Assembly (NCBI GenBank): GCA_030540435.1
Contig: JAUNWG010000001.1
Location: 1 to 64,000 of the forward strand
DNA from: Eubacteriales bacterium
GTDB taxonomy: Bacteria > Bacillota > Clostridia > Oscillospirales > Butyricicoccaceae
Reading direction: 5' to 3'
DNA: 64,000 nucleotides
This document shows, in pieces, positions 3,829 to 18,646 of the stretch. Made by a program: the position numbers and the translations under genes. Under the pieces are notes generated by a model that worked only from the letters and a program-made list of their open reading frames with translations, did no database searches and was not told the DNA's origin. How positions within the stretch are numbered: position 1 is the stretch's first letter; every line of letters begins with the position of its first letter.

Positions 3829-3848
3829 ATGCACCTCCATAGGCTCCT

Positions 3849-5339: not shown

Positions 5340-5371
5340 AGAACTTCCTCCAGTCAAACGGTATTACTATA

Positions 5372-5400
5372 GTTCTATGGCGTACAGCAGGCAGATATGC
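5372..5400 (-). promoter_or_regulatory. Sigma-E-like promoter of sipL-spoIVA
   Basis: On the minus strand GCATATC (plus 5394-5400) and CATAGAAC (plus 5372-5379) are separated by 14 bases. This fits the Bacillus sigma-E pattern of an ATATT-type -35 and a CATACAnT-type -10, as expected for mother-cell genes. Inferred from sequence only. Confidence 0.6.
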
Positions 5401-5411
5401 CAAAAATAGGA

Positions 5412-5441
5412 TTGCCTAGCGGTATGGGTTCGTGGTACAAT
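5412..5441 (+). promoter_or_regulatory. Sigma-A-like promoter of the HAD hydrolase gene
   Basis: TTGCCT (5412-5417), an 18-base spacer and TACAAT (5436-5441), with a TG extended -10 element just before the hexamer. Confidence 0.55.
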
Positions 5442-5465
5442 GTAACATGGAAGGATGTGTGAGAT

Positions 5466-6161: not shown

Positions 6162-6185
6162 GTTGCTCGGATATTATTGTGAAAG

Positions 6186-6226
6186 AAAAAAAGGACGATC
6201 CCCTTTTAACTGGAACGTCCTTTTGT
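6186..6226. terminator. Bidirectional terminator between HAD and MFS genes
   Basis: AAAGGACG (6190-6197) pairs with CGTCCTTTT (6216-6224); A and T runs on both sides let it serve both convergent genes. Confidence 0.8.
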
Positions 6227-6238
6227 AATGGTTGGATA

Positions 6239-7423
6239 TCAGTCCAGACCGTGCTTTTTGCGATAAGTGAAGGAAGACGGGTGGTTACGTCCCCATGCCA
6301 TGTAAATCACGATGGACAGGATATTGAAAACAGCCATAATGACAAACATGTGGTTGTAGCCGACTGCGGTGATCAGAGAACCGGCGATGCCGCCGCCGAC
6401 ACCGATGCCGATATCATAAGCGCACAGGAAGGTGGAATTTGCGCTGCCACGGCACTCCGGCGGCGCAATGGCAACTGCCATGGACTGCAGCGCAGGCTCC
6501 AATCCGCCAAAGCCGAAACCTGCCAGGACGGCGGAGAGCAGATAGGTAACGATATTCGGGCACAGACCCATCAGCAGGAAGGCAACGAGCATGGCGATAT
6601 TACAAGTGTAAGCGAAGATGCTTTCACCGTGCTGGTCCGTTACCTTTCCGGCGGAAAGACGGGTGACCAAAAGTGCGACAGCCATGATAGCGAAGAAAAT
6701 ACCGCCGCTGGGCAGGCCCTGTTCTGCTGCGAATTTTGCGGTGAAGTTTTCTAGCGCACCGTAGGTCAGCATAAAGATTAAAGCAGTAAAAGAGGCCGGA
6801 AGTGCATCCTTATCCAGCAGACCCTTGATGGTAAACGGTTTGCTTTCAACCTCGATCTTCGGTACCCGAAGCATCAGAAACAGGATGAGCGCAATGACAA
6901 CGGAGATCGCTGCAAACAGGAACAGTGTGGTAAAGCCCATATGATCCATCAGGGCAAGACCGAGCGCCGGTGCGCAGGCAGTTGCAAGTGCAGTCGCCAG
7001 ACCGAACATACCCATGCCTTCGGCAAAACGGGCTTTTGGGATGATGTCGGTAGCGATCGTAGAGGTCGAAGTATTGGAAAAGGCAAGCGATGCGCCGTGA
7101 ACCATACGGCAGACAAACGCAAGGAACATGGTGGAAAGCACAAGATAGCCGACCGGCATCAGCGCCATACCGCACAGGCCGATGATAAGGATCGTCTTAC
7201 GCTTGCCGTTATCCAGCATCCAGCCGATGATCGGGCGGAAGACAACTGCGACAATGGAAAACAGTGCGGCAGCAAGGCCGGCAACGGTTTCCGAACCGCC
7301 CAGATATTCGATATAAAACGGAAAGGTCGACAGGATCATCAGATGATTCATAAATACAAGGAAATTGATGATAATGATCAACGTAAAATCCTTTGTCCAT
7401 AGCTTAACTGGTTTTTGACTCAT
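6239..7423 (-). CDS. Major facilitator superfamily transporter
   Basis: A 394-residue integral membrane protein with about 12 hydrophobic helices. The loop after helix 2 carries the MFS motif A variant GWMLDNGKRK, and a charged central loop (VPKIEVESKPFTIKGLLDKD) divides the two six-helix halves. It looks like a drug/metabolite exporter of the YfcJ/AraJ-like type; the substrate is not predictable. It starts at 7423 after CAGGAG. The gene has its own promoter and a 98-base leader containing a terminator-like hairpin, so expression may be set by attenuation (see separate entries). Confidence 0.9.
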   Translation of the reverse strand: MSQKPVKLWTKDFTLIIIINFLVFMNHLMILSTFPFYIEYLGGSETVAGLAAALFSIVAVVFRPIIGWMLDNGKRKTILIIGLCGMALMPVGYLVLSTMFLAFVCRMVHGASLAFSNTSTSTIATDIIPKARFAEGMGMFGLATALATACAPALGLALMDHMGFTTLFLFAAISVVIALILFLMLRVPKIEVESKPFTIKGLLDKDALPASFTALIFMLTYGALENFTAKFAAEQGLPSGGIFFAIMAVALLVTRLSAGKVTDQHGESIFAYTCNIAMLVAFLLMGLCPNIVTYLLSAVLAGFGFGGLEPALQSMAVAIAPPECRGSANSTFLCAYDIGIGVGGGIAGSLITAVGYNHMFVIMAVFNILSIVIYMAWGRNHPSSFTYRKKHGLD

Positions 7424-7468
7424 AAATAAACACTCCTGAAAAAAATATTTTCGAGTATGTACAGACGA

Positions 7469-7510
7469 AAAAAGAGCGTAAGCCCAGATTATCCCTGGAT
7501 TTACGCTCTT
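7469..7510 (-). promoter_or_regulatory. Terminator-like hairpin in the MFS leader (putative attenuator)
   Basis: AAGAGCGTAA (7469-7478) pairs with TTACGCTCTT (7501-7510) with an inner CCAGA/CTGG stem. On the minus strand, the direction of the MFS gene, the hairpin is followed by TTTTTT. It lies between the promoter at 7528-7557 and the start codon at 7423, so full-length transcription must read through it. No known riboswitch class was recognised. Confidence 0.65.
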
Positions 7511-7527
7511 CGCAACTCGGTGTGCCT

Positions 7528-7557
7528 ATTTTAACAAATCATTGTATCAGATGTCAA
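7528..7557 (-). promoter_or_regulatory. Sigma-A promoter of the MFS gene
   Basis: Read on the minus strand: TTGACA (plus 7552-7557), 18-base spacer, TAAAAT (plus 7528-7533). Initiation would be near 7521, about 10 bases before the attenuator stem. Confidence 0.75.
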
Positions 7558-7595
7558 GAATAAATTTTGCAGCTGCGGTTCATGTACGCTCCATT

Positions 7596-7682
7596 TTAGG
7601 GCGTCGGCACTTTTTTGATGCCAAAGATACTGCGCAGAATACCGGCAAGCAGCTTAGGGCTCTTGATGACAACGATTTTCAT
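7596..7682 (-). CDS. spoVM: Stage V sporulation protein M, 28-aa amphipathic membrane anchor
   Basis: The 28-residue product starts MKIVVIKSPKLLAGILRSIF. It matches the SpoVM pattern MKxxxIKxPKxLxGIxRxxxG, including the Pro9 that breaks the helix, and ends with a short basic tail. SpoVM is an amphipathic helix that recognises the convex forespore membrane and anchors SpoIVA there. It is too short for routine gene calling. AAAGGGG lies about 10 bases before the ATG. It is 20 bp downstream of another tiny membrane-protein gene in the same direction, and spoIVA and sipL are close by. Confidence 0.9.
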   Translation of the reverse strand: MKIVVIKSPKLLAGILRSIFGIKKVPTP

Positions 7683-7702
7683 AAAAAACGACCCCTTTCG
7701 GA

Positions 7703-7849
7703 TTATCGGAGATGAATGACGATGCCGACCGCAACCAGCATCAGCGAAGATACCGGTACAAGGATGACCGCCGGGAGCAACGTGGCAAGCAGCAGGCCCA
7801 GCCCGAATGCGGCCGCCGTCAGTCCGAAGGTCTTCCAGCAGCAGTGCAT
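7703..7849 (-). CDS. Small membrane protein upstream of spoVM
   Basis: A 48-residue product starting MHCCWKTFGL, followed by an almost unbroken hydrophobic region of about 35 residues with Gly/Pro breaks (GLGLLLATLLPAVILVPV), enough for one or two membrane helices. The ATG is preceded by GAGGTGAGGTAA, a good ribosome site. I do not recognise the family. Its 20-bp spacing from spoVM suggests cotranscription and possibly a sporulation or membrane-remodelling role, which is inference only. Confidence 0.6.
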   Translation of the reverse strand: MHCCWKTFGLTAAAFGLGLLLATLLPAVILVPVSSLMLVAVGIVIHLR

Positions 7850-7911
7850 TTACCTCACCTCTGCAAGCAGTATAAGCGAAAGAGGATGGAATGGTGCGTG
7901 TCCGGCAAAAA

Positions 7912-8313
7912 TTATTTTTTTAGACGGGCGTTGATCTCCCGCAGCGTGGCGCGGCGAATGAGAAATAGGACAAAATGGATGATAACATACATAATGAGAA
8001 CGGAGGGCAGCATACGCATCAGCAGAACAGAGAAGGATCCGTCGCCGTAATTCAGAATCCAACCGGAAATCAATGCGACGGCAATTGTGATGGGCGCATG
8101 GATCATGGTAGCTGTGATGTCTGTCAAGCGGTCGCTTTCATATACAATAGAGATCAGTCCGATCAATGCTGCGGCAATCAGCCATACAATGATCTGCTTT
8201 AACATTTCATTCATACCGAAATTGACATACAAGCTGAACGTGATGGCAATGGCGCCAAAGGCAATGGCAACAGCGATATACATTAGGCTTGTTTGAATGA
8301 TAGAATGTTTCAT
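7912..8313 (-). CDS. DUF3021-type four-helix membrane protein
   Basis: A 133-residue protein with four predicted membrane helices (roughly residues 8-30, 40-58, 70-90 and 100-118) and a basic C-terminal tail. It fits DUF3021, a family found almost always beside a LytTR DNA-binding protein, as here: the LytTR stop is 3 bases before this start. Family members are thought to modulate the partner regulator at the membrane, but the mechanism is not established. It is the second gene of a two-gene operon. Confidence 0.85.
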   Translation of the reverse strand: MKHSIIQTSLMYIAVAIAFGAIAITFSLYVNFGMNEMLKQIIVWLIAAALIGLISIVYESDRLTDITATMIHAPITIAVALISGWILNYGDGSFSVLLMRMLPSVLIMYVIIHFVLFLIRRATLREINARLKK

Positions 8314-8316
8314 AGT

Positions 8317-8766
8317 TCACAACTCCTTTATAACATATTGGCGGAAGGGTTTAAAATACTTGCGGGAAATCGTCAGTCGGGTCTTACGGTCGCTGAGCGT
8401 GGCAGTATAGTTTCCGGAAAATTCCGGCTCAACAGACAGCACGTCGTGTACGTTGACTAAGATCGCTTTGCTGATCTGGACAAAGCCGTTGCCGGACAGC
8501 ATATCCGCCAGCTCATACAGCTTATAGCGGGATTCCATCGTGCCCTGCAGGGTGTGGGCAAGGATTTTGCCGTGCATTGCTTCAAAATACAGAATCTCGG
8601 AGACAGGGCACAGGTATTCCTTTTCCTCCCGATACAGGAACAGACGGGAAATCACCTTTGCCGCAGTGAGTGCAGCAATGATTTTCGGCACCTGCGGGTC
8701 ATTGAGGTCGCCGCGGATGATGATTTCCAATTCATCATTTTCCGCAGGCTCTAGCGTGAACTTCAT
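8317..8766 (-). CDS. LytTR-domain DNA-binding response protein
   Basis: A 149-residue regulator without a receiver domain. The N-terminal about 50 residues (LEPAENDELEIIIRGD .. KVISRLFL) form a small alpha/beta part, and residues about 55-149 are a LytTR domain (LCPVSEILYFEAMHGKILAH, FVQISKAILVNVHDVLSVEP, SRKYFKPFRQYV). LytTR proteins bind paired direct repeats upstream of targets, often their own operon. The start at 8766 follows GAGAGGAGGAATACC. It forms a pair with the DUF3021 gene. A weak promoter (GAGACA, 17 bases, TATACT at plus 8800-8828) lies upstream. Confidence 0.9.
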   Translation of the reverse strand: MKFTLEPAENDELEIIIRGDLNDPQVPKIIAALTAAKVISRLFLYREEKEYLCPVSEILYFEAMHGKILAHTLQGTMESRYKLYELADMLSGNGFVQISKAILVNVHDVLSVEPEFSGNYTATLSDRKTRLTISRKYFKPFRQYVIKEL

Positions 8767-8799
8767 GGTATTCCTCCTCTCTGTTTTGCTTGTGTACAC

Positions 8800-8828
8800 A
8801 GTATAGCAGAGGGCGAGATATTTGTCTC
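8800..8828 (-). promoter_or_regulatory. Possible promoter of the LytTR-DUF3021 operon
   Basis: Minus strand GAGACA (plus 8823-8828), 17-base spacer, TATACT (plus 8800-8805). The -35 is weak. The overlapping palindrome GAGATATTTGTCTC could be an operator. Confidence 0.4.
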
Positions 8829-8926
8829 AGATTTTGCGGCAAGTGGTCGGCATTGGGGGCTGAAAGGTAGAAATGCGGAAGTGAAAAATTCAAGGGCAGG
8901 AGTAAAATATTTTAAACAGCATATAC

Positions 8927-8955
8927 TTGAAAGTGCCTGACAGATGTGGTATATT
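8927..8955 (+). promoter_or_regulatory. Promoter of the small antisense-type RNA
   Basis: TTGAAA (8927-8932), exactly 17 bases, TATATT (8950-8955), with TGG directly before the -10 (extended -10). No ORF follows before the hairpin at 9001-9036, so the product should be a short RNA of about 80 bases. Confidence 0.7.
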
Positions 8956-8961
8956 TGTTCT

Positions 8962-9042
8962 AGGCAAATGTTAAGATAATTTCTTCCACGAGCAAAACGA
9001 AATCCCCCGGAGACTGCTACTCTCCAGGGGATTTCTATTCCT
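8962..9042 (+). ncRNA. Candidate antitoxin small RNA convergent with the peptide gene
   Basis: Predicted transcript from the promoter at 8927-8955 to the shared hairpin. Its 5' part contains GATAATTTCTTCCAC (8975-8989). The ten bases TTTCTTCCAC (8980-8989) are identical to plus-strand 9163-9172, the complement of the start-codon region of the 31-aa peptide. The RNA can therefore pair with the peptide mRNA at its translation start and again through the common terminator. This is the layout of the par/Fst RNA I-RNA II pair. The RNA itself is predicted, not observed. Confidence 0.55.
9000..9037. terminator. Shared bidirectional terminator of the toxin-antitoxin-like pair
   Basis: GAAATCCCC (from 8999) and GGGGATTTC (9027-9035) form the outer stem, with GGAGA/TCTCC inside. 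T-rich tails flank it on both strands (CTATTCCTTT on plus, CGTTTT on minus), so it can end both convergent transcripts. Confidence 0.7.
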
Positions 9043-9076
9043 TTATAGGCGGCTTAGACCTTTTAGACTGACTGTT

Positions 9077-9172
9077 TTACCGTTTGCTGTTGCTATCCAG
9101 CCATTTGCAAATGAAGTAGGCAACGACATTTGCTGCGACAGCAACACTGAATGATAAAATATTTTCTTCCAC
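9077..9172 (-). CDS. 31-aa hydrophobic peptide, candidate type I toxin
   Basis: The peptide has an acidic start (MEEN), one membrane helix of about 18 residues (ILSFSVAVAANVVAYFICKW) and a polar, basic tail (LDSNSKR). Size, single helix and charged tail fit the short membrane toxins of type I systems in Firmicutes; the exact family is not recognised. The start is GTG at 9172 behind a near-perfect GGAAGGAGGTGACC. It has an extended -10 promoter at 9227-9235, a 5' leader of about 48 bases and a terminator at 9000-9037 shared with an opposing small RNA. Confidence 0.6.
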   Translation of the reverse strand: MEENILSFSVAVAANVVAYFICKWLDSNSKR

Positions 9173-9226
9173 TTGGGTCACCTCCTTCCCATGTAGGCGG
9201 GAAGAAAGTGGTAAAACAGTAAAAAT

Positions 9227-9255
9227 AGTATAGCATATATTCGACAAAAAGAAAA
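9227..9255 (-). promoter_or_regulatory. Extended -10 promoter of the 31-aa peptide gene
   Basis: Minus strand TGC-TATACT (plus 9227-9235), with a poor -35 TTTTCT 17 bases upstream (plus 9250-9255). Confidence 0.55.
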
Positions 9256-9293
9256 CCGGCAGACACCGAAGGGCGTCTGCCGGAAATTTTTTA
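9250..9293. terminator. Hairpin just outside the left att site, probably the original pfp terminator
   Basis: CCGGCAGAC (9256-9264) and GTCTGCCGG (9275-9283) form a stem with T runs on both strands. It lies 26-53 bases beyond the left att copy. In the empty chromosome it would sit just after the pfp stop codon; now it follows the integrase gene instead. Confidence 0.75.
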
Positions 9294-9308
9294 GGTTATG
9301 AGAAAATG

Positions 9309-9326
9309 TGTCTATTACTCAGCGAC
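9309..9326. repeat. att site, left copy
   Basis: TGTCTATTACTCAGCGAC, identical to 17302-17319. It marks the left junction of the element. Confidence 0.9.
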
Positions 9327-9430
9327 AATTGCAAACCCTTTATAACGTGGTAATATTGTGTCAAATTTCTTGCAATATATATTAAATCAGAGAACATTTC
9401 GAGCAAAAAGTTATTGGCTCTAATTCTTTT

Positions 9431-9450
9431 TAGAGCCAAAATAGAGCCGG
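9431..9450. repeat. Left arm-type repeat pair (integrase binding candidate)
   Basis: Two TAGAGCC units 11 bp apart (9431 and 9442) followed by GG, 105 bp inside the left att. The matching pair is at 17178-17197. An inverted GGCTCTA lies at 9416-9422. Confidence 0.65.
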
Positions 9451-9452
9451 TT

Positions 9453-10508
9453 TTATTGTAGATTTTGCAGCCGTGCGGCAACCTGCTCTTGTTTGTTTGG
9501 GTACAAATGGGCGTATGTGTTGAGGGTAGTTTCCACTTTTTCATGTCCGAGCCGGTCGGCAATCAGAAGAGGGCTAAAACCCTGCTCGATCAACAGGGAA
9601 GCGTGAGAATGACGAATATCGTGAATCCGTATCTTTTTCACGCCTGCCTTGATGCATCCGCGCTGTAATGCCTTGGTGAGCATGTGCACGGTAAAGTCAA
9701 AGATGCGGTTGTTTTCTTTAAGGTCGTAAATCTGCCCCATATATGCGCTCAGTTCGTCGGTAAGAAACGGGGGCATAGTTATTATGCGATTGCTCTTCGG
9801 TGTTTTAGGTGGCGTTATAACGTCCTTTCCGTCCATCCTGGTGTAGGTCTTGTTAATAGAGATAGTTCCGGCTTCTAGGTCAATGTCTGCCGGAGTCAAG
9901 GCGAGTAGCTCCCCGCAGCGCATACCGGTATAATACAGAAGTTGAAACGCCATGTATGCCGATGGCTTTTTTTCAAGAACCTTCCGAAATTGTTTGTATT
10001 CTTCCAGCGTCCAGAATTGCATTTCTTCCGCTTTGTTTTTGCCAATACTGCCCGCTTTCTTGCAGGGGTTCTCCGGCAGTTTATAATATCTGACTGCATA
10101 GTTGAACATAGCGGATAGCTGATTGTTTACGGTCTTTAGATAGGTCTGTGAATATTCATGAGGATCTGTCATTAAAGCATTCTGCCACTTGCGGATATCC
10201 GACGGAGTAACGCCGCACAACGGTTTCTTTCCAAAATAAGGTAGTATTTTTAATTCAATTATATATTTTTTCTGTCGATAGGTGGTTTCCCGTACACGGT
10301 GCTGCATGTCTTCTAGGTACAGTTTCGTGAAGGAATCTATTGACATATTGATATTCGCGGTTTCACGGCTAAGAAATTCCCGCTCCCATTCAAGGGCAGC
10401 CTTTCTAGTCTCGAAGCCGCGTTTTTTCTTTTTCTTCCGGGTGCCAGTCCAATCGGTATAGTAGCATTGCACTGTCCATGTTCCGTTGGTGTCTTTATTC
10501 GCTGGCAC
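9453..10508 (-). CDS. int: Tyrosine-type site-specific integrase
   Basis: Catalyses integration and excision of the element. The protein has 351 residues. The N-terminal arm-binding domain (about 1-55, with the basic run TRKKKKKRG) is followed by a SAM-like core-binding domain (about 57-150). The catalytic domain carries Arg197 (TGMRCGEL), His296 and Arg299 (IHDIRHSH), His322 (LGHEKVETT) and the nucleophile Tyr332 (NTYAHLY), so all active-site residues are present. The start is GTG at 10508 after AGGAGGTGCAGCC. It lies at the left end beside its att site, as usual, and resembles Tn916/phage-type integrases of Firmicutes. Confidence 0.95.
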   Translation of the reverse strand: MPANKDTNGTWTVQCYYTDWTGTRKKKKKRGFETRKAALEWEREFLSRETANINMSIDSFTKLYLEDMQHRVRETTYRQKKYIIELKILPYFGKKPLCGVTPSDIRKWQNALMTDPHEYSQTYLKTVNNQLSAMFNYAVRYYKLPENPCKKAGSIGKNKAEEMQFWTLEEYKQFRKVLEKKPSAYMAFQLLYYTGMRCGELLALTPADIDLEAGTISINKTYTRMDGKDVITPPKTPKSNRIITMPPFLTDELSAYMGQIYDLKENNRIFDFTVHMLTKALQRGCIKAGVKKIRIHDIRHSHASLLIEQGFSPLLIADRLGHEKVETTLNTYAHLYPNKQEQVAARLQNLQ

Positions 10509-10544
10509 GGCTGCACCTCCTACGTCGGCTCAAAAATGAGCGCA

Positions 10545-11039
10545 CTAGTCGTTGTCTTTCTTGATAGTGATTTTTTCACCGGTTACACGATCTTCAATAG
10601 TGGTTTTCTCTATGTCGTGCGCGATAGCAGCATCCAGCCTGCGCCCCTCTGTAAATTCGGGAATATTTGTCATTTCAGCCGTGCGCTTGACCGCTTCTTC
10701 CTGCCCGTGGGCGTTTAGCTTGCGAAAATTTGTTGTCAGTCTTTCAAGGCGTTCGCTTTCTGCGGCGTCGGCTTTTTTTATGTCTTCCGTAACTTTATTC
10801 CGTGCCTTATCAAAATCCGCGCCGGTTTCATAGGTTTCGATTTCCGAGGAAGCAAGCAACTCTGTTACAGGTATATTCAAAGCGGCTGCGATTTTTTGTT
10901 GCTGTTCAAGTCGTGGTTCTCTTTTCTCGCTCTCGTATTGGCGGATAGTTATTGTGGCAACGCCGAGTTTTTCGGCAAGTTGAGCTTGTGTTAATCCGGA
11001 TTGCATTCGATGTTTTTTTATTTGACTTCCAATACCCAT
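10545..11039 (-). CDS. CI-like XRE-family repressor of the element
   Basis: A 164-residue protein. Residues about 3-60 are an XRE helix-turn-helix (IGSQIKKHRMQSGLTQAQLA, TITIRQYESEKREP, IAAALNIPVTELL). The rest is a charged helical region without a recognisable LexA-type protease domain, so induction by RecA cleavage is not indicated. The start at 11039 follows GAGGTG. It faces the Cro-like gene across a 130-bp region with three ATTC-N5-GAAT operators. It most likely keeps the right-hand genes silent. Confidence 0.88.
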   Translation of the reverse strand: MGIGSQIKKHRMQSGLTQAQLAEKLGVATITIRQYESEKREPRLEQQQKIAAALNIPVTELLASSEIETYETGADFDKARNKVTEDIKKADAAESERLERLTTNFRKLNAHGQEEAVKRTAEMTNIPEFTEGRRLDAAIAHDIEKTTIEDRVTGEKITIKKDND

Positions 11040-11085
11040 AAGATAAATCACCTCTTTTAGATAGAGTATCACATTGAATGAAAAT

Positions 11086-11154
11086 ATTCAAGATGAATCT
11101 CAAAAAACACTTGACAGATTCGAAATGAATTGATATTATATATTCAAATTGAAT
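11086..11154. promoter_or_regulatory. Operator array and divergent promoters of the lysogeny-type switch
   Basis: Three ATTC-N5-GAAT palindromes lie at 11086-11098, 11118-11130 and 11142-11154. The rightward promoter TTGACA (11111-11116), 17 bases, TATTAT (11134-11139) has one operator inside its spacer and one over the start point. A weaker leftward promoter (TTGAAT, 17 bases, TACTCT) overlaps the first operator. Confidence 0.75.
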
Positions 11155-11171
11155 CGGTTGGAGGTGAGACT

Positions 11172-11372
11172 ATGCGAATCAACCGTAGGAAGTTGAATAT
11201 CGCAATGGCACGCGCTTGTATGAAGCCCAAAGACATTGTGAAAGCAGGTATTCCACGTGGAACGTGGTGCCGGTCATTAAACAGCGATGTGAGCGCCGCA
11301 ACAGTCGGCAAAATCGCCCGCGCTTTAGGCGTGGACGTACTGGACATTATCGAACAGGAGGAAAAGCCGTGA
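11172..11372 (+). CDS. Cro-like helix-turn-helix protein
   Basis: A 66-residue protein that is almost entirely one XRE-type helix-turn-helix domain (RKLNIAMARACMKPKDIVKA, SDVSAATVGKIARALGVDVL). It is the first gene of the rightward operon and starts at 11172 after GGAGGTGAGACT. Its position opposite the CI-like repressor and its small size suggest a Cro-type antirepressor. Its stop overlaps the GTG of the next gene (GTGA). Confidence 0.85.
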   Translation: MRINRRKLNIAMARACMKPKDIVKAGIPRGTWCRSLNSDVSAATVGKIARALGVDVLDIIEQEEKP

Positions 11373-11563
11373 AAACGACAAAATATGCAGAGGGCAATAC
11401 CCGATATGTCACCGCTGCGGAAGTAGCGGAAGCAATGGGCGTTTGTCTGGCAACTGCCTACACAGTTATTAAGAAGCTCAACGCCGAGCTGAATGAAAAG
11501 GGATACATAACTGTTCGTGGTAAGGTGTCCCGCAAGTATTTTGAAGAACGCTGCATGTATTGA
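11369..11563 (+). CDS. Excisionase-like winged HTH protein
   Basis: A 64-residue protein with a MerR/Xis-type helix-turn-helix (YVTAAEVAEAMGVCLATAYT, followed by the wing KGYITVRGKVSRKYFEER). Such proteins in Firmicute integrative elements act as excisionases or transcription factors. The GTG start overlaps the previous stop and is preceded by AGGAGGAAAAGCC. Role assigned from family and position in the element. Confidence 0.75.
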   Translation: MKTTKYAEGNTRYVTAAEVAEAMGVCLATAYTVIKKLNAELNEKGYITVRGKVSRKYFEERCMY

Positions 11564-11591
11564 TGCAGGACGGGTATAAGAAAGCAGGTGA

Positions 11592-13565
11592 ATGACCACG
11601 GAATTACAGGAATTTCTATCGCACTTTAAAAACGTGAAGCCGTATAACGGCTATTACATGGCTATGTGCCCGGTACATAACAAAAAAGATACGACCTTGA
11701 GCATTAAGCAGGTCGAAGACGGAAAAATACTATTGCACTGTCACAGAGAATGCAAAACAGAGGATATTGTTGCCGCAGCGGAATTAACAATGGCCGATCT
11801 GTTCCCTGATCGACACAGCGCAGCTTCGGCTTCCCGCGATTTCAAGAAGATCGAGCAGCCGCCAAAGAAGCAGCCTAAGCCGTGGAAACAGCGGTATGAT
11901 ATCGCCGCGTCATACGAATATAGGGACGACGGCGGGCATCTGCTGGCGGTTAAAGACCGGTATTACAAAGACGGTAAGAAGCAACAGTGTTGGCGGCATC
12001 AGGATAGATCTGGTGCATGGTATTACGGCGCGGGTGGCGTAGAACTTCCACTGTATAAGCATGAATGTATCAGCAATCCTGTATTTCTCGTTGAAGGAGA
12101 AAAGGACGTTGACACGATGCTGGCGGGCGGTCTCCACGCTGTCACCAATCCGAACGGCGCGGGCGAATGGAAAGACCGGTACACCGAACAACTGCGCGGC
12201 TATGATGTGTGTATCATCCCGGACAATGACGCGCCGGGAAGGAAGCACGCCGAGACAGCAGCTAACGCCCTACATGGTGTAGCAGCGTCGGTAAAGCTGC
12301 TCGACCTATCCGAACTGTGGCCAGATATACCGGAGAAAGGCGACGTGACCGACTATGTAGAATGGTGTCGGAGCATAGGACGCAAGGATGGCGATATATT
12401 CAATTGCCTGAGCTTGGCGCGGGATGGCGCGTCGGAGTTTGTACCTAATGAGGACAATACCAAAATCGACACCGTTGTCGATTTTGATTGGGGAATGTTT
12501 CGACCATTAAACGATTTTGAAGAAGTCGAACCGGAATGGCTTGTACCACGATGGATTCCAAAGGAGCAAATAACCATTTTTGCATCCGAGGGCGGCGTAG
12601 GTAAAACGTCGATGGTTTGCGACATAGCCGCGGCAATCAGCAACGGCGGGCAATGTATCTTAGACGCAGAAGATATAGAACGTAATCCGGCGAAAGTTTT
12701 GTTCATGACCACAGAGGACAGCATCAGTAAGAAATTGCGGAAGCAATTAAGGCTTGCCGGTGCGAATATGCAAAATATTTTTGCACCAGATCCCCAAAAG
12801 GACAAAGAGTATAAGGCGTTAAAGATTAAATTCGGTTCTCCTGAATTGGAAGCAATGATTGAGCATTTCAAGCCTGCGTTGTGCATATTTGACCCGATAC
12901 AGGGTTATGTGCCGCCGAATATCAACATGATATCGCGTAATGCAATGCGTGATTGTCTCGCGCCGTTGATACCGCTGGGCGAGAAAACCGGATGTACGTT
13001 TATTCTTGTATGTCACAGTAACAAAAAGCGCGGCGCGTTTGGTCGTGAGAGGATTTCGGACTCGTCGGATTTGTGGGACATTGCACGGTCGGTCATAATG
13101 GCGGGATACACAGACCAGCACGATAAAAAAATCAGATATGTGTCAAACGAGAAAAACAGTTACGCAACGACCATGCAAACGATTTTATTTTCCATCGGTG
13201 AAAATCGACAGATTGTTTTTGAAGGGCATTCCGATAAGAGCGATTATGATTTTTCCACGGCGATCTTTGAGGAAAGAGCAAAGAAGCCGCCTGAACCGTT
13301 GAATGAAAAACTCTTGGAAGCATTGAAGGATGCTGCAAGCCCGTTTGATGCCGTCAAGTTTTTTTACGCGGAATTTGAAGAAAAATATGGCGCGACGATC
13401 TACGGCGGCAAGCAGCCTAAAAAAGCTCTTGACCTGATGAAACCACATATGGAAGAAGCCGGGTATTCTTTAATCACAAAACAAATAAAGATCGGAAAGC
13501 AAGGCGGAAAAGGTTTTGTCATTCAGCCGATAAACGACAACGAACCAGAACAGATTGCAGTATGA
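11592..13565 (+). CDS. Primase-helicase fusion, replication protein of the element
   Basis: A 657-residue replication protein. A CHC2-like zinc motif is formed by Cys26, His29, Cys50 and Cys54. A TOPRIM domain follows, with FLVEGEKDVDT (about 166) and IIPDNDAPGR as acidic metal sites. A RepA/KaiC-like AAA ATPase then carries the P-loop EGGVGKTS (about 333) and a Walker B-like ALCIFDPIQGY. The C-terminus is a charged winged-helix-like tail. It should unwind and prime DNA at the element's own origin, like the pri-rep proteins of satellites. The start is ATG at 11592 with AGGTGA close upstream. Confidence 0.9.
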   Translation: MTTELQEFLSHFKNVKPYNGYYMAMCPVHNKKDTTLSIKQVEDGKILLHCHRECKTEDIVAAAELTMADLFPDRHSAASASRDFKKIEQPPKKQPKPWKQRYDIAASYEYRDDGGHLLAVKDRYYKDGKKQQCWRHQDRSGAWYYGAGGVELPLYKHECISNPVFLVEGEKDVDTMLAGGLHAVTNPNGAGEWKDRYTEQLRGYDVCIIPDNDAPGRKHAETAANALHGVAASVKLLDLSELWPDIPEKGDVTDYVEWCRSIGRKDGDIFNCLSLARDGASEFVPNEDNTKIDTVVDFDWGMFRPLNDFEEVEPEWLVPRWIPKEQITIFASEGGVGKTSMVCDIAAAISNGGQCILDAEDIERNPAKVLFMTTEDSISKKLRKQLRLAGANMQNIFAPDPQKDKEYKALKIKFGSPELEAMIEHFKPALCIFDPIQGYVPPNINMISRNAMRDCLAPLIPLGEKTGCTFILVCHSNKKRGAFGRERISDSSDLWDIARSVIMAGYTDQHDKKIRYVSNEKNSYATTMQTILFSIGENRQIVFEGHSDKSDYDFSTAIFEERAKKPPEPLNEKLLEALKDAASPFDAVKFFYAEFEEKYGATIYGGKQPKKALDLMKPHMEEAGYSLITKQIKIGKQGGKGFVIQPINDNEPEQIAV

Positions 13566-13894
13566 CCGAGGGAGTGCAAAAAACAGAAACCAGAAACCAA
13601 AGATTTTAAACGTGAAAAAGGTTATATAACGAATGCAATTATGTTTTATTTTTACGTTTTTTACCGTTATAAGTTACTGGTTTCCAAGTTTCTATTTTTC
13701 TTCCTCACGGTAAAGCGGTAACCGTGCCGGAAAAACGGTAACCAAAAATGTAATCCGTGCAGACGGCGCAAAATTGCGCTATAGGATTGGACACCTAAAA
13801 CTTTAGGTGTCGAAATGACGGGACAAAGGGGCAGAAAATTTCCACATTTCACGCTCAACGATTGGCGACGTTGGGCACAAAGGAGGTGAACATC
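13566..13894. other. Noncoding, repeat-rich stretch: candidate replication origin of the element
   Basis: No plausible gene lies here. The block has an AT-rich core (13620-13700), three direct CGGTAA motifs (13708, 13716, 13736) with one inverted TTACCG (13661-13666), a perfect 14-bp palindrome GCGCAAAATTGCGC (13766-13779), and a perfect 10-bp stem GACACCTAAA/TTTAGGTGTC with a 2-base loop (13790-13811). Its place just after the primase-helicase gene fits an origin, by inference. Confidence 0.5.
13605..13619. repeat. 15-bp direct repeat, copy 1
   Basis: TTTAAACGTGAAAAA, repeated exactly at 14514-14528; the two copies enclose the candidate origin and the block of tiny genes. Confidence 0.6.
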
Positions 13895-14041
13895 GTGAAG
13901 AAAAACTTAGCTTCCACGCGAACCAACGAAAAGGCACTTGCACATGCAATGCAGCGGGGCTTTGGAGCATTCCGACAGAGACCCAAGCGGGTTGAAGTGC
14001 CGGAGGAGTGGCGTAAAAAGCCGATTACAAAACAGGAGTAA
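13895..14041 (+). CDS. Small basic protein of the element
   Basis: A 48-residue, Lys/Arg-rich protein (MKKNLASTRTNEKALAHAMQ .. PEEWRKKP), starting at GTG 13895 behind AAAGGAGGTGAACATC, a very strong ribosome site. No family is recognised. The charge would suit nucleic-acid binding, but there is no motif to prove it. First of a run of tiny genes after the candidate origin. Confidence 0.6.
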   Translation: MKKNLASTRTNEKALAHAMQRGFGAFRQRPKRVEVPEEWRKKPITKQE

Positions 14042-14076
14042 TACAAATAGTAATCATATTACAGGAGGTAATTATT

Positions 14077-14202
14077 ATGAACAACAATCAGACAATGCAG
14101 GCTGAATACCTGCGCGAAGCAATCAAGACGTTGGTAGACCGTATGGACGATGTTGACGAGCTCACAGAAGTTCTCGACATGCTCGGATATTATGGAGGTT
14201 AA
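14077..14202 (+). CDS. Tiny acidic helical protein of the element
   Basis: A 41-residue protein (MNNNQTMQAEYLREAIKTLV .. LTEVLDMLGYYGG), mostly one or two acidic helices. ACAGGAGGTAATTATT precedes the ATG. No family is recognised. It ends 5 bases before the next start, whose ribosome site overlaps its last codons. Confidence 0.6.
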   Translation: MNNNQTMQAEYLREAIKTLVDRMDDVDELTEVLDMLGYYGG

Positions 14203-14207
14203 TTATT

Positions 14208-14417
14208 ATGAAGTACACACATAACGCAGACGGCAGCACTACCATTCAGTATACCAAGCTGGAAGCACAGAAATATCAGCATTATCGTGGACGCTGCGAG
14301 GAGATGCTGAGATCGGCTCGGAGGATACCGAATGACTCAGCAGGAAAAGGAAAACCGTATGATTCGAGAGTTGCGGCAGGAGATTATTGCATCTGTCATG
14401 CTGATCGGCGATTATGA
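14208..14417 (+). CDS. Small hypothetical protein overlapping the next gene
   Basis: A 69-residue frame starting MKYTHNADGSTTIQYTKLEA with a good GGAGGTTAATTATT ribosome site. The first about 40 residues look protein-like; the last part (DSAGKGKPYDSRVAAGDYCI) runs in another frame over the next gene by 86 bases and looks less so. Either both frames are used or this one was extended by loss of an earlier stop. Confidence 0.45.
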   Translation: MKYTHNADGSTTIQYTKLEAQKYQHYRGRCEEMLRSARRIPNDSAGKGKPYDSRVAAGDYCICHADRRL

Positions 14418-14484
14418 TGAATTGATGAAGATTTATGCAGATGTACTTTGGTACGCTGTAGGTCCGCCGAGTGTACACGGGTGA
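14332..14484 (+). CDS. Small helical protein of the element
   Basis: A 50-residue protein (MTQQEKENRMIRELRQEIIA .. YADVLWYAVG), mainly charged helix with a hydrophobic end. The ATG is preceded by GGAGG with a 6-base gap, lying inside the previous frame. No family is recognised; a small regulatory role is typical for this position in phage-like elements but not shown. Confidence 0.55.
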   Translation: MTQQEKENRMIRELRQEIIASVMLIGDYDELMKIYADVLWYAVGPPSVHG

Positions 14485-14815
14485 TACGCTCAAAATTGAG
14501 CACAAAAACACCGTTTAAACGTGAAAAATAATAAAAAACATGACTTTTCCAAACTTTAGTGCCACTGATCTACTAAGTGCCTTGAAAAGTTGCAAAAACA
14601 GAATGTTTTTAAAGAAATAGGGGGCATACCGCCCTCCCCAGCGCAACGCTGAGCTTCATACGGCGTACTGCACAAATATCTCGCGGAGATTAAAAAGACT
14701 CTTTCCCATCCGCCTACCAAGCAGGGAAAGAGCCACGTACACCTACCCACACAGGGCGGCTATCTGGTCTCATTGTACCAGAGCCGCCCGCCAGATACAA
14801 GGAGAATTTGAAAAA
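14485..14815. other. Structured noncoding gap in the element
   Basis: No credible gene. It holds a perfect palindrome GCTCAAAATTGAGC (14488-14501), the second copy of the 15-bp repeat (14514-14528), a hairpin CTCTTTCCC/GGGAAAGAG (about 14699-14731), and a long GC-rich hairpin near 14755-14790 (GGGCGGCT-TCTGGT with ACCAGA-CCGCCC) just before the next gene. A regulatory RNA, a packaging site or a second origin are possible. Confidence 0.5.
14514..14528. repeat. 15-bp direct repeat, copy 2
   Basis: TTTAAACGTGAAAAA, identical to 13605-13619. Confidence 0.6.
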
Positions 14816-15091
14816 ATGTCTTTTTTGCTCAGCAGTTTTGACGATGTATGTGCAAGGCTTGAAATGCATGTTGAACGCGCTCTATTCGTCCACGGTGATA
14901 TGACCAATGAAACGAATGAAATTGATTTTGACAAGGATGAACGTTGGAAGCTCGAACTCGTCGGAAGACACACCGCCATGCGTGCTGAAATCATTTTTGA
15001 CTATTTGTGGATGATGAACAATGAAATAGATGAGCTGAAGGAGCTTGTACAGGCATTACAGAACCAGAAGAAAAGTGGTGGTCAGGCATGA
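14816..15091 (+). CDS. Hypothetical protein of the element
   Basis: A 91-residue, acidic, mainly helical protein (SFDDVCARLEMHVERALFVH .. EIDELKELVQALQNQKKSGG) with a short coiled-coil-like C-terminus. CAAGGAG lies 11 bases before the ATG. No family is recognised. The stop overlaps the next start (ATGA), so the two are translated together. Confidence 0.65.
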   Translation: MSFLLSSFDDVCARLEMHVERALFVHGDMTNETNEIDFDKDERWKLELVGRHTAMRAEIIFDYLWMMNNEIDELKELVQALQNQKKSGGQA

Positions 15092-15282
15092 AAATCAAGA
15101 TTACATATCAGTCGGGTGAGCCGGTCACAGACATATTGAACGCTCTTGCGCCGTTCTTTCAGGCAGACCCGCACGCAACCTGTAAAACATCGACCAATCA
15201 CCTACCGTATTATCACATCTATGTGACCTTTACACCACGCGAGAAAAAAACAGATCCGGGCGAGAAAGTCCATATAGATTGA
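15088..15282 (+). CDS. Small hypothetical protein of the element
   Basis: A 64-residue protein (MKIKITYQSGEPVTDILNAL .. YYHIYVTFTPREKK) with a likely beta-alpha-beta fold. It is translationally coupled to the preceding gene by ATGA overlap and has its own GGTGGTCAGGC ribosome site. No family is recognised. Last gene before the small-RNA candidate. Confidence 0.6.
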   Translation: MKIKITYQSGEPVTDILNALAPFFQADPHATCKTSTNHLPYYHIYVTFTPREKKTDPGEKVHID

Positions 15283-15331
15283 CTACTTTCAGGTATTGAG
15301 GGCGGAAAAGTTGCGAAAATCAACAGTTTTA

Positions 15332-15360
15332 TTGACTATACCCCCTATATGTGATATAAT
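15332..15360 (+). promoter_or_regulatory. Very strong sigma-A promoter inside the element
   Basis: TTGACT (15332-15337), exactly 17 bases, TATAAT (15355-15360), with TG at the extended -10 position. It is the strongest-looking promoter in the element and drives the RNA described next, and possibly the capsid genes by readthrough. Confidence 0.8.
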
Positions 15361-15366
15361 AAAACC

Positions 15367-15441
15367 ATAGAGTACCGCCGGTAACGGTTAGCTGATTCGA
15401 GGCATGGGAAACAGTGGAAACGCTGCGCCCATGCCTTTTTT
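15367..15441 (+). ncRNA. Small RNA or attenuator leader ending in a GAAA-capped terminator
   Basis: About 75 bases from the strong promoter to an intrinsic terminator. The outer stem is GGCATGGG (15401-15408) with CCCATGCC (15428-15435), the inner stem CAGTG/CGCTG closes a GAAA tetraloop, and TTTTTT follows. No ORF lies within. It is either a discrete small RNA or a leader that attenuates the scaffold-capsid operon starting at 15541. Confidence 0.6.
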
Positions 15442-15540
15442 CATTGGTGGGGTTTCTATCCTTTCTCCCCGCAAATCGCCCGGCAATACTCTAATATAAT
15501 ATTAGCCGAAACTCACAGGCGTAAAACGGAGGTATTTATT

Positions 15541-16044
15541 ATGAATGAACAGATACAGAACATTGAACAGCCGCAGGACAGCACCCAGCAGGGAGCACCA
15601 ACTCAGCCGGAGGAAAACGGTGGCGCTGGTAAGATGTTCACGCAAGAGGACGTTAATAGAATCGTATCGGAACGCCTGGCACGCGACAGAGCCAATAAGG
15701 GAACGTCTTCCGATGATCGGGAAGCAGGGCTTAATAAGCGAGAAGCTGAACTCCAAGCGCGAGAAGCCCGCCTTGCGCAGATGGAAATTGACAACTTGAA
15801 ATTACGCGTCGCTATGGAGGTAGGCTTACCGCTTGCAATGGCGAGCCGTCTTACAGGCGACGATGAGGATGCAATCCGCGCCGACGCAAATGAGCTGGCG
15901 AAACTGATGAAGCCGCAGCACAAAGCGCCGCCTATGAGAAATCCAGATGCAAAGCCGGGGGCTGCAATTGCGGGATACGGTTCTGAGATGTCCAATACAA
16001 AACATAAACCAAAAAGATATGAAATTGGATATTATGATGATTGA
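15541..16044 (+). CDS. Phage capsid scaffold-like protein (GP20/DUF4355 type)
   Basis: A 167-residue protein with a Gln/Pro-rich N-terminus, the segment GKMFTQEDVNRIVSERLARD that is typical of phage scaffolding proteins, a long charged coiled coil (about 55-100), and a basic, disordered C-terminus. Scaffolds guide capsid protein into procapsids and are then removed. It starts at 15541 after ACGGAGGTATTTATT and lies 6 bp upstream of the capsid gene, the classical order. Confidence 0.8.
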   Translation: MNEQIQNIEQPQDSTQQGAPTQPEENGGAGKMFTQEDVNRIVSERLARDRANKGTSSDDREAGLNKREAELQAREARLAQMEIDNLKLRVAMEVGLPLAMASRLTGDDEDAIRADANELAKLMKPQHKAPPMRNPDAKPGAAIAGYGSEMSNTKHKPKRYEIGYYDD

Positions 16045-16050
16045 TATATT

Positions 16051-16938
16051 ATGAGTATTGAATTAGTAAAAAAATTTGCGCCTTACACCGATGAGGTTTT
16101 CAAGGCGGAATCGAAAACAAGCCTTTTAACCAACAGTGATTTTGATTGGACGGGTGCACATTCTGTTTCCGTGTGGAAGATTAGCACTGTTCCTCTTCAA
16201 AATTATGCGAGAAATCGCAGCGCAGCGGATTATTCCGATCCTGACAGCGTGGCAAGTATTTCCCGATACGGAGAAATTATTGACCTTGACGCGCAGACGG
16301 AAGAAATGCTGCTGAAGAATGACCGTAGCTTTATCTTCAATGTTGACCGGCTGGATGCCGACGAAACAGCGGGACAGTTGGAAGCGGGCAAGGCGCTCAC
16401 GCGCGAGTTGCGGGAGGTTGTCGTGCCGGAAGTTGATAAATATGTGTACGGTGTTATGGTGGAAAAAGCTGGTACAGTAGCAGAACCAGCGAATGCTGTG
16501 GGTTGGAGTGCTTACACAGCTATCGCAAAGGGCAATGAGGCTCTTGACGATGCAGAAGTACCAGAAACAGATCGCGTTATTGTTGTTACACCTGCAACAT
16601 ACCGCAGTTTGAAAGAGTGCCCGGATGTTTACCTTGACTGCGATATTGCGCAGGAAATGCGAATGAAGGGCGTTGTTGCTATGATTGATGGGTGCGCGGT
16701 TGTCAAGGTTCCTGCTGCACGTCTGCCGAAAAACTTCGGTTTCATGATTGCTCATCCGTCCGCAACAGTCGCTCCGGTCAAGCTGGAGGACTACGGTACG
16801 CACACCGATACACCGCTTTCTAGCGGTACAATTGTAACCGGTCGTATTTGCTATGACGCTTTTGTACTCGATAACAAAAAGATGGGTATTTACTATCAGC
16901 CGCTTATCGAATCAGAGACTGGAACGACTGGGGAATAA
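16051..16938 (+). CDS. Phage major capsid-like protein
   Basis: A 295-residue protein beginning MSIELVKKFAPYTDEVFKAE, with SRYGEIIDLDAQTEEMLLKN, a long central helix (LEAGKALTRELREVVVPEVD), and a C-terminal beta-rich half (RVIVVTPATYRSL, MIDGCAVVKVPAARLP, FMIAHPSATVAPVKLEDY). This order of E-loop-like segment, spine helix and P-domain resembles HK97-fold coat proteins of P22/SU10-like phages. Length is normal, so it is not a fragment. Start ATG at 16051 is preceded only by a weak site, which suggests coupling to the scaffold gene. No portal or protease gene accompanies it. Confidence 0.8.
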   Translation: MSIELVKKFAPYTDEVFKAESKTSLLTNSDFDWTGAHSVSVWKISTVPLQNYARNRSAADYSDPDSVASISRYGEIIDLDAQTEEMLLKNDRSFIFNVDRLDADETAGQLEAGKALTRELREVVVPEVDKYVYGVMVEKAGTVAEPANAVGWSAYTAIAKGNEALDDAEVPETDRVIVVTPATYRSLKECPDVYLDCDIAQEMRMKGVVAMIDGCAVVKVPAARLPKNFGFMIAHPSATVAPVKLEDYGTHTDTPLSSGTIVTGRICYDAFVLDNKKMGIYYQPLIESETGTTGE

Positions 16939-16942
16939 CACT

Positions 16943-17077
16943 ATGGGCGACGAATTGAGAAATGCATATTTGAAGCTGGTGCACGACATTTGTGAACAGA
17001 TCAAACGGCAGTGGGAAGCTGACAGAATCAATAGATCGTTACCAGGCTTGCTTCAAAAGCTGGCACAGGAAATTTAA
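16943..17077 (+). CDS. Small last gene of the capsid operon
   Basis: A 44-residue amphipathic helical protein (MGDELRNAYLKLVHDICEQI .. LLQKLAQEI), starting 4 bp after the capsid stop. GGGGAATAAC is a moderate ribosome site. No family is recognised. It could be a minor capsid or accessory peptide, or a truncated remnant. A strong terminator follows. Confidence 0.5.
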   Translation: MGDELRNAYLKLVHDICEQIKRQWEADRINRSLPGLLQKLAQEI

Positions 17078-17082
17078 AGTTA

Positions 17083-17120
17083 CGGGGGGATGGTAAAAGC
17101 CGTCCCCCCTGTTCTTTATT
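17083..17120 (+). terminator. Terminator of the capsid operon
   Basis: GGGGGGA (17084-17090) pairs with TCCCCCC (17103-17109), followed by TGTTCTTTATT. Confidence 0.75.
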
Positions 17121-17177
17121 CATATGGGGAGCTGCACGCAGATTTGCGCTGTGAACAAAAGAAGATTGACTGATAAG

Positions 17178-17197
17178 TAGAGCCATTTTAGAGCCGG
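17178..17197. repeat. Right arm-type repeat pair
   Basis: Two TAGAGCC units 11 bp apart (17178 and 17189) followed by GG, about 105 bp inside the right att. Spacing, orientation and distance mirror the left pair at 9431-9450. Confidence 0.65.
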
Positions 17198-17202
17198 GCA
17201 CA

Positions 17203-17250
17203 AAACAAAGAACCCCGCAATCCAACTTTTTTGCGGTTGAACTGCGGGGA
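17203..17250 (-). terminator. Element-borne terminator that now serves pfp
   Basis: CCCCGCA (17213-17219) pairs with TGCGGGG (17243-17249). On the minus strand, reading out of pfp, it is followed by TTCTTTGTTTTG. It lies inside the element and can replace the native hairpin displaced to 9250-9293. Confidence 0.65.
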
Positions 17251-17301
17251 TTTGCTTGAAATTATCTGAATACAGAATAAATTCGGGTGGATTGGAAATG
17301 C

Positions 17302-17319
17302 TGTCTATTACTCAGCGAC
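17302..17319. repeat. att site, right copy, overlapping the pfp stop codon
   Basis: TGTCTATTACTCAGCGAC, identical to 9309-9326. It includes the last three codons and stop of pfp (TTA at 17308-17310 is the stop on the minus strand), so insertion leaves the protein intact. Confidence 0.9.
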
Positions 17320-18543
17320 GATCTTAGCCAGCTTTGCAAAGCGCGGCAGACCATTTTCCTTCTTCATCTGGGTCTCGCCCTGAATCAGCGGCAGAGCGTA
17401 GTTGATGAAGTCCTGAGATACGTTGTTGCCACGCTCGTTGATCCACTCTACCGGAACCTTCTTCTCGTAGTTTGCTACGTCGGACAGGTTCAGCAGCTTG
17501 GTGGTGCAGGTGTAGCCGTTCTCACGGGAGCACTCGAACGCAACCATCTTGTCGGTCTCGCCAGCAACTGCGGAGTTAACAGCAGTCTGACCAGCCAGGA
17601 AGGACTCGTCGATATCAGTCTGGGAAGCGCAGTGTGCAGCGCAGCGCTGCAGCAGAGACAGCTCGATGGCACGAACCTTAACGCCGAGCTTTTCCTTGAC
17701 AACGTCTGCCAGCATAGCAGCCAGACCGCCCAGCTGCGCATGACCGAAGCCGTCGGTAGCAGAGGTCTTAGCCTCGGATACGAAGGAACCGTCAGCATAG
17801 TGGATGCCTTCGGAAACAGCTACGATAACGTTGTGGTTCTTGTCCCAGATAGCCTGAACATCTTCCAGGAACTCGTCCATATTGAAGTCGACCTCCGGCA
17901 GGTAAACCAGATCAGCCGGATAACCAGCGACCTCAGCCAGGGAAGCAGCGCCAGCCAGCCAGCCTGCATGACGACCCATGATCTCAATGATGGAAACCTG
18001 ACCCTTGTCGTATACGTGGGAATCCTGATAAACTTCTGCGATGGAAGTAGCGATATACTTAGCAGCAGAAGCGAAGCCCGGGCAGTGGTCAGTGCCGAAC
18101 AGGTCGTTGTCGATGGTCTTCGGGATACCCATTACGCGGCAGTCATAGCCAACCTTCTTCATATACTTGGAAATCTTGTTGCAGGTATCCATGGAGTCGT
18201 TACCGCCGTTGTAGAAGAAGTAACGAACGTCATACTTCTTGAAGATCTCAAGGATGCGCTTGTAATCGGTGTCATCAACATCCGGGTCAGCGATCTTGTA
18301 GCGGCAGGAACCCAGTGCAGAGGACGGGGTGTACTTCAGAAGCTCCAGCTCAGCCGGGTCTTCCTTGTCCATTACATACAGTTTATCGTTCAGAACACCG
18401 ACAATGCCGTTTGCAGCGCCGTATACGGTGGTGATGGAATCAGAATCCAGACCAGCCTTGATTGCGCCGTATGCGCTGGCATTGATAACAGAAGTAGGAC
18501 CACCGGACTGACCGATGATCATTGCGCCCTTCAGCTCACTCAT
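17308..18543 (-). CDS. pfp: 6-phosphofructokinase, PPi-dependent type
   Basis: Phosphorylates fructose 6-phosphate to the 1,6-bisphosphate, most likely with pyrophosphate. The 411-residue protein has the phosphoryl-donor motif YNGGNDSMDT and the substrate motif GIPKTIDNDL. The Asp after GGN and the Lys in PKTID are the residues that distinguish PPi enzymes from ATP enzymes (GGDGS, PGTID). MGRHAGWLAG binds the sugar phosphate. The ATG at 18543 follows AGGAGG with a 9-base gap. Its promoter is at 18647-18675. The integrative element is inserted across its last codons without changing the protein. Confidence 0.93.
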   Translation of the reverse strand: MSELKGAMIIGQSGGPTSVINASAYGAIKAGLDSDSITTVYGAANGIVGVLNDKLYVMDKEDPAELELLKYTPSSALGSCRYKIADPDVDDTDYKRILEIFKKYDVRYFFYNGGNDSMDTCNKISKYMKKVGYDCRVMGIPKTIDNDLFGTDHCPGFASAAKYIATSIAEVYQDSHVYDKGQVSIIEIMGRHAGWLAGAASLAEVAGYPADLVYLPEVDFNMDEFLEDVQAIWDKNHNVIVAVSEGIHYADGSFVSEAKTSATDGFGHAQLGGLAAMLADVVKEKLGVKVRAIELSLLQRCAAHCASQTDIDESFLAGQTAVNSAVAGETDKMVAFECSRENGYTCTTKLLNLSDVANYEKKVPVEWINERGNNVSQDFINYALPLIQGETQMKKENGLPRFAKLAKIVAE

Positions 18544-18646
18544 AATCAAAAACCTCCTAAATTATCACGAAACAAATGCGGCGGGATTTTGGCAGAAAAC
18601 CACGGGAGATGTGTCCTGTCAAGCCGCACTTTCCGATGTTAAGATG

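Follow-up and report, generated by a model that had tools for sequence, protein, structure and literature searches.

A family of small, probably satellite-like elements in the Clostridia with a core of scaffold and capsid genes but no portal or terminase

The analysis of a 7,993-bp integrated element in a genome of the Butyricicoccaceae (Eubacteriales bacterium, assembly GCA_030540435.1) points to a phage satellite that probably, though with much room for doubt, makes its own small shell on the portal, packaging motor and tail of a helper phage. The element lies at 9309-17319 of the window, by which we mean the whole 64,000-nucleotide stretch analyzed (contig JAUNWG010000001.1, positions 1 to 64,000). 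Both major capsid protein (MCP) homologs in satellites and capsid-forming satellites are already known. What is new is a conserved pair of scaffold and full-length MCP genes as the core of a lineage, without portal or terminase. The family is widespread and apparently undescribed, for no account of it was found in the open-access papers to which the search extended.

The ends of the element are exact 18-bp direct repeats (TGTCTATTACTCAGCGAC, at 9309-9326 and 17302-17319, with exactly two copies within the window), and its site is the 3' end of a gene that we take to be pfp from its sequence and from general knowledge, not from a family search. The right-hand repeat overlaps the pfp stop codon. 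In four genomes of the same genus, in which this 3' end is uninterrupted, a terminator follows directly 3' of the stop codon; in the window the matching hairpin is found at about 9247-9292, to the left of attL and some 8 kb away from pfp. Since the hairpin sits beyond the left repeat here and adjoins pfp in the four relatives, the element must have separated pfp from its terminator and rebuilt its stop codon. The features of the element and its target, with the evidence for each, are as follows.

9309..9326, no strand: attL, 18-bp direct repeat copy (exact repeat)
9453..10508, minus: tyrosine integrase, 351 aa (phrog_1 4e-82; PF00589, PF14659, PF14657)
10545..11072, minus: CI-like HTH repressor, 175 aa (HTH_3 5e-14; phrog_8 3e-16)
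11130..11372, plus: Cro-like small HTH protein, divergent from cI (HTH_26 0.003, weak; position, the same in relatives)
11216..11563, plus: excisionase-like protein, true start probably near 11369 (phrog_989 1e-20; NF047858 ICEBs1 Xis 4e-14, under the curated cut-off)
11592..13565, plus: primase-helicase, 657 aa (phrog_6088 and phrog_239 2e-29; AAA_25 4e-21)
13862..14041, plus: small ORF, no assigned function (ORF list; no PADLOC match)
14208..14417, plus: small ORF, no assigned function (no family, PADLOC included)
14816..15091, plus: small ORF, 91 aa, no assigned function (no family, PADLOC included)
15088..15282, plus: small ORF, 64 aa, no assigned function (no family; own cluster of 3 loci)
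15541..16044, plus: capsid scaffold protein, 167 aa (phrog_233 4e-21; PF14265, Gp46, 4e-8, above the cut-off)
16051..16938, plus: major capsid protein, predicted HK97 fold, 295 aa (phrog_422 3e-50; Z 14.2 to 8e16)
17302..17319, no strand: attR, 18-bp direct repeat copy at the pfp 3' end (exact repeat)
17308..18549, minus: pfp, presumably 6-phosphofructokinase-type, the integration target (orthologs 94-97% identical in other genomes of the genus)

All ORFs of the element are intact. The original prediction of an integrase, a CI/Cro switch, an excisionase-like protein, a primase-helicase and scaffold and capsid genes, all undamaged between perfect att repeats, is thus borne out by family matches and by the exact 18-bp repeats, and so is the absence of portal, terminase, tail and lysis genes: none is present in the element, in which the largest unassigned ORF (plus strand) encodes 91 aa. 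No TerS or interference gene was recognized among the ORFs between primase and scaffold, nor CpmAB or TerS anywhere in the element; searches of the window for tRNA genes and Rfam families gave no match, and the sole match of the defense-system models to the element was a weak one to the primase domain. Homologs of the 64-aa ORF sit immediately 5' of the scaffold gene in close relatives.

An HK97 fold for the 295-aa protein had been put forward as a point to check by structure prediction. The model, which was built from 43 relatives and has a mean pLDDT of 63 (moderate confidence), matches the capsid of phage Che8 (Foldseek E 1e-11, VIA Z 14.2), with HK97-fold phage capsids as the top rows, and a PDB profile search also returns Che8; on this model the window MCP has the HK97 fold. 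Its N-terminal arm region is complete and aligns to phage MCPs without loss. In one related locus (L229, 8145-9458) the MCP frame extends about 90 residues beyond the usual C terminus, and no separate scaffold was recognized upstream.

The satellite-type MCPs stand well apart from those of known phages. A full-length phage carrying the same segment, which would have marked the element as a recent deletion product, was sought and none was found: the closest MCP reaches 42% identity in 50,697 phage records and 43% in plasmids, and a deeper scan of viral contigs yielded phages at no more than 47%. The phages at the 42% level (Streptococcus Javan phages and Geobacillus phage phiOH2) have the order TerS-TerL-portal-minor head-scaffold-MCP-connectors-tail. 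In an MCP tree of 95 rows, in which fragments with too little context carry the label U, the satellite type forms one clade of 72 rows (support 98/100), and inside it fall three rows bearing TerL/portal and the phage-like L186. This last locus has the unusual order TerL-MCP-portal-minor head and a second, unrelated major head protein downstream. Among the roughly 90 loci with an MCP at least 50% identical, TerL/portal is confined to L046 and L168, as judged with profiles derived from the related phage type. When 343 Clostridia genomes were sampled evenly, a phrog_64 portal lay at most 4 kb from the MCP at none of the four loci with 52% identity or higher, among them the window's, versus 9 of 13 at 35-42% (Fisher p=0.03).

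Pairwise dN/dS values (0.04-0.27 for the MCP and below 1 for the scaffold; 0.27 and 0.23, respectively, between the window and L001) indicate that MCPs of the satellite type are under purifying selection. Distances between scaffolds follow those between MCPs (r=0.65) far more closely than do those between integrases (0.23) or repressors (0.12), and the bootstrap range of the difference between the scaffold and integrase correlations is 0.27-0.58. As far as sequence distances can tell, the scaffold tracks the MCP and the integrase and repressor get swapped. High MCP conservation is in itself no evidence, because the loci were chosen by their MCP; the way in which scaffold and integrase differ does count as evidence.

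The family of related elements, which was gathered by MCP similarity through collection scans relying on short peptide patterns, comprises some 90 loci, fragments included, from Clostridia and Erysipelotrichaceae. The MCP scan of 84,980 species genomes gave 55 loci; viral contigs contributed 14 and 65 further loci, some of them phages. Most of the close loci with enough context agree in orientation and in the gene order int-cI-(cro/xis)-primase-small ORFs-scaffold-MCP. The original prediction had proposed to look for the same order at other sites in related genomes, and this arrangement turns up at numerous integration sites that are unrelated: besides pfp, these include rpsI (L008, L009, L019), tuf (L029, L035), the 3' ends of tRNA genes (L013, L014, L022, L032, L041) and others, the host genes being named from their sequence and not from a family search, and the 13-16 bp end repeats of some members being less certain. 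Sizes taken from end repeats run from 7,993 to about 9,400 bp, with the exception of the TerS-TerL-portal carrier L046 (13.9 kb). A large serine recombinase replaces the tyrosine integrase in L010, L012 and L023, and the primases belong to two unrelated families. Carriers are gut-type Clostridia, including named strains such as Massiliimalia massiliensis Marseille-P2963 and Acetatifactor muris DSM 23669; a 9,178-bp member, whose 23-bp repeat resembles a tRNA end, resides in a one-contig genome. Terminal repeats close five metagenome contigs into circles (L005, 8,333 bp; L107, 8,291; L108, 9,407; L115, 8,500; L117, 8,555), and a further metagenome contig (L114) holds head-to-tail copies of one element with a period of 8,513 bp, which suggests a concatemer, integration in tandem or repeated reading of one circle. 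Sixteen loci (L002, L024, L038, L040, L048, L107 and others) encode, typically just 3' of the MCP, a sigma-70-like factor (phrog_351, about 300 aa), which may turn on late genes of the satellite or the helper.

Members differ in what follows the MCP. The window element has no further head gene on this side; L005 has Neck1; L015, L019 and L021 have a head-tail adaptor and Neck1; L006 has a minor head protein; and L046 has TerS, TerL and portal. Through the few members that add neck, minor head or TerS-TerL-portal genes, the family therefore ranges from shell-only to nearly capsid-forming. In the TerL/portal carriers of the satellite clade TerS-TerL-portal comes after scaffold-MCP, whereas in phages it comes before. 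This reversed order, together with the nesting of the carriers within the satellite clade, suggests that these genes were gained later in the satellite lineage. The original prediction had seen in the element an intermediate strategy, with a self-made shell and a borrowed portal, motor and tail, and the idea is strengthened by these other members, because they add neck, minor head or TerS-TerL-portal genes; its novelty is reduced, in that MCP-bearing satellites without portal or terminase have precedents in SaPIbov5 Ccm and in Gram-negative PICIs.

One member, L162 (IMG 2845752767_000004, 2832-13208; 9,489 bp), has inserted into the MCP gene of a helper-like prophage that otherwise looks complete. 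The prophage has TerS-, TerL-, portal-, minor head-, scaffold-, connector-, tape measure-, tail- and lysin-like genes, of which the tape measure was identified by family search and the others were read from sequence and order. Both junctions hold ATGGACATT, a 9-bp shared core, and the first 90 residues of the interrupted MCP are 74% identical to the MCP of Streptococcus phage Javan351. In L106 (3861-4919) the satellite adjoins a tape-measure protein that matches profiles only from the middle onward, and this may be a second case of insertion within a phage gene. Elsewhere in the genome, 16 of 48 satellite hosts carry a portal of the phrog_64 type, which is the one that accompanies the MCP in related phages, versus 71 of 342 controls (p=0.06). 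Two short contigs (G000:C158 and G000:C4) carry TerL, a phrog_64 portal and minor head genes, with the MCP genes falling off the contig ends; the former has an intact portal and also a TerS-like gene, the latter has stop codons, and the two are possible fragments of helper prophages. A phrog_422 search of the genome returns only the window MCP and one distant copy, which belongs to a head cluster kept across the genus. A tail-less phage head cluster (G000:C115, about 78-86 kb, L077 and L078; G010:C2, L079) lies at matching chromosomal positions in two of the genus's species and consists of TerL, a portal-like gene, a scaffold, a 350-aa MCP and three more genes. Most genomes of the genus, as well as other genera of the family, have a homolog of the 350-aa MCP, mostly with an open frame, and the operon looks vertically kept and possibly domesticated.

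Taken with the observed gene content, intact frames, att repeats, lineage, purifying selection, covariation of scaffold and MCP, circular forms and absence of portal and terminase, the satellite cycle might be pictured as follows. Judging by gene family, the integrase and the ICEBs1-type excisionase would excise the element, its own primase-helicase would replicate it and the CI/Cro switch would maintain it. Upon helper induction the satellite scaffold and coat would assemble, probably around the helper portal, into a small shell sized for the 8-9 kb genome or for a dimer, which the helper terminase would presumably fill; connectors, tail and lysis would be supplied by the helper. If a 40-kb T=7 head is assumed and volume scales as T^1.5, T=3 corresponds to about 11 kb and T=4 to about 17 kb, so that a T=3 shell would hold a single genome and a T=4 shell two, although this is arithmetic and not evidence. 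Redirection of capsid size via a scaffold-like protein is known from P4 Sid and SaPI CpmB (see also PMC6893505), and via a capsid homolog from SaPIbov5 Ccm (PMC8569155); the window element has genes of both kinds, its coat protein being full-length.

That the element builds a complete shell of its own is what we infer from the conserved lineage, the separate MCP clade, the rarity of TerL/portal, the tight size, the dN/dS values, the covarying scaffold, the circles, the full N-terminal arm, L162 and the member in a one-contig genome. Against it we count the minor-subunit precedent of SaPIbov5, the dispensable capsid genes of Gram-negative PICIs, the pLDDT of 63, the weak portal excess and the choice of loci by MCP. 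The main rival, ranked next, is a mosaic shell of the kind redirected by SaPIbov5 Ccm, in which the satellite MCP would fill only some positions (e.g. pentamers), the rest of the shell being helper coat protein, and the satellite scaffold would bias assembly towards small size. Ccm, which is 24% identical to the helper coat protein, resides in pentamers and forms no shells alone (PMC8569155), sets the precedent for such a mosaic, and the satellite MCP is likewise far from known phage MCPs. Nevertheless, Ccm is devoid of a long N-arm and its helper of a separate scaffold, whereas here a full-length MCP covaries with its own scaffold, and the neck or TerS-TerL-portal genes of some members suit a self-made shell; we regard the mosaic as a serious but lesser possibility.

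Other readings seem to us improbable. Scaffold and MCP could act as an anti-phage module that poisons helper capsid assembly instead of carrying satellite DNA, given that interference with helpers through capsid genes is common in satellites and that the satellite in L162 interrupts the prophage's own MCP gene; yet the tight size of 8-9.4 kb, the mobility and the neck and packaging genes added in relatives are left unexplained by interference alone, and we deem this unlikely. Less credible still is a reduced or decaying prophage that retained scaffold and MCP by chance. The genes are indeed phage-derived, and the nearest phages have the same scaffold-MCP pair beside portal and terminase, but the same truncated content and size recur across dozens of unrelated sites and hosts, the MCPs form a separate clade under purifying selection with dN/dS well below 1, att sites and ORFs are intact, circular forms occur and no close full-length phage exists in the collections searched (best phage MCP identity 42-47%). 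The remnant reading is hence largely refuted.

On the self-made shell we are evenly divided about a broader proposal: that these "shell-only satellites" constitute an old, separate Clostridia lineage that replaces just the helper's shell, assembling a whole small capsid out of its own scaffold and coat protein on a helper portal and motor, that sub-lineages added neck, minor head or terminase and portal in a graded series, and that at least one member integrates in the very MCP gene it replaces.

Comparison with known systems shows features in common and features that differ. Like the Gram-positive PICIs (SaPIs, EfCIV583), it combines an integrase, a divergent repressor switch, a primase-type replication gene, specific att sites and small size with the lack of lysis and tail genes, and its int/divergent repressor/replication organization is theirs. 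Those islands, however, measure about 15 kb, compared with 7,993 bp here and up to 9.4 kb in the family, and are free of structural genes (no capsid or scaffold gene is recognizable in EfCIV583; PMC6893505), whereas scaffold and MCP are carried here. With cf-PICIs and the Streptomyces satellite viruses MulchRoom and MiniFlayer it would share a shell made by the satellite, as its genes suggest. It has its own MCP, but lacks the portal, connectors and terminases that these satellites encode (PMC10690885); L046, with its TerS-TerL-portal, stands close to this type. Because defining features are missing in each case, we assign the element to neither the Gram-positive PICI nor the cf-PICI class, even though it probably functions as a satellite of this general type. 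SaPIbov5 Ccm is likewise an HK97-fold MCP homolog in a satellite, redirecting or supplying the shell, but no scaffold partners it, the long N-arm is absent and it fills only pentamers of the helper shell (PMC8569155); the window element, by contrast, has both scaffold and arm. Among Gram-negative PICIs, 21 of 29 reference elements have MCP homologs, which are dispensable for transfer (PMC10111431). The helper-embedded 11capE of E. coli resembles L162 in lying in a prophage capsid gene, in having its own MCP and in its short identity block (10 bp versus 9 bp in L162; PMC10111431), but differs in host phylum and in a divergent layout, with int against primase-MCP; the window element itself lies in pfp and not in a prophage late gene. 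The phages with phrog_422-type MCPs (Streptococcus Javan, Geobacillus phiOH2) also have a scaffold followed by the same MCP family, though with TerS-TerL-portal-minor head before, tail genes after and an MCP only about 42% identical. A self-made shell on borrowed machinery would provide satellites with a third route to a capsid, besides remodelling the helper shell and building a whole head, with sub-lineages that show how other head modules get added, and it makes testable how freely shell, portal and packaging motor can be swapped between unrelated tailed phages.
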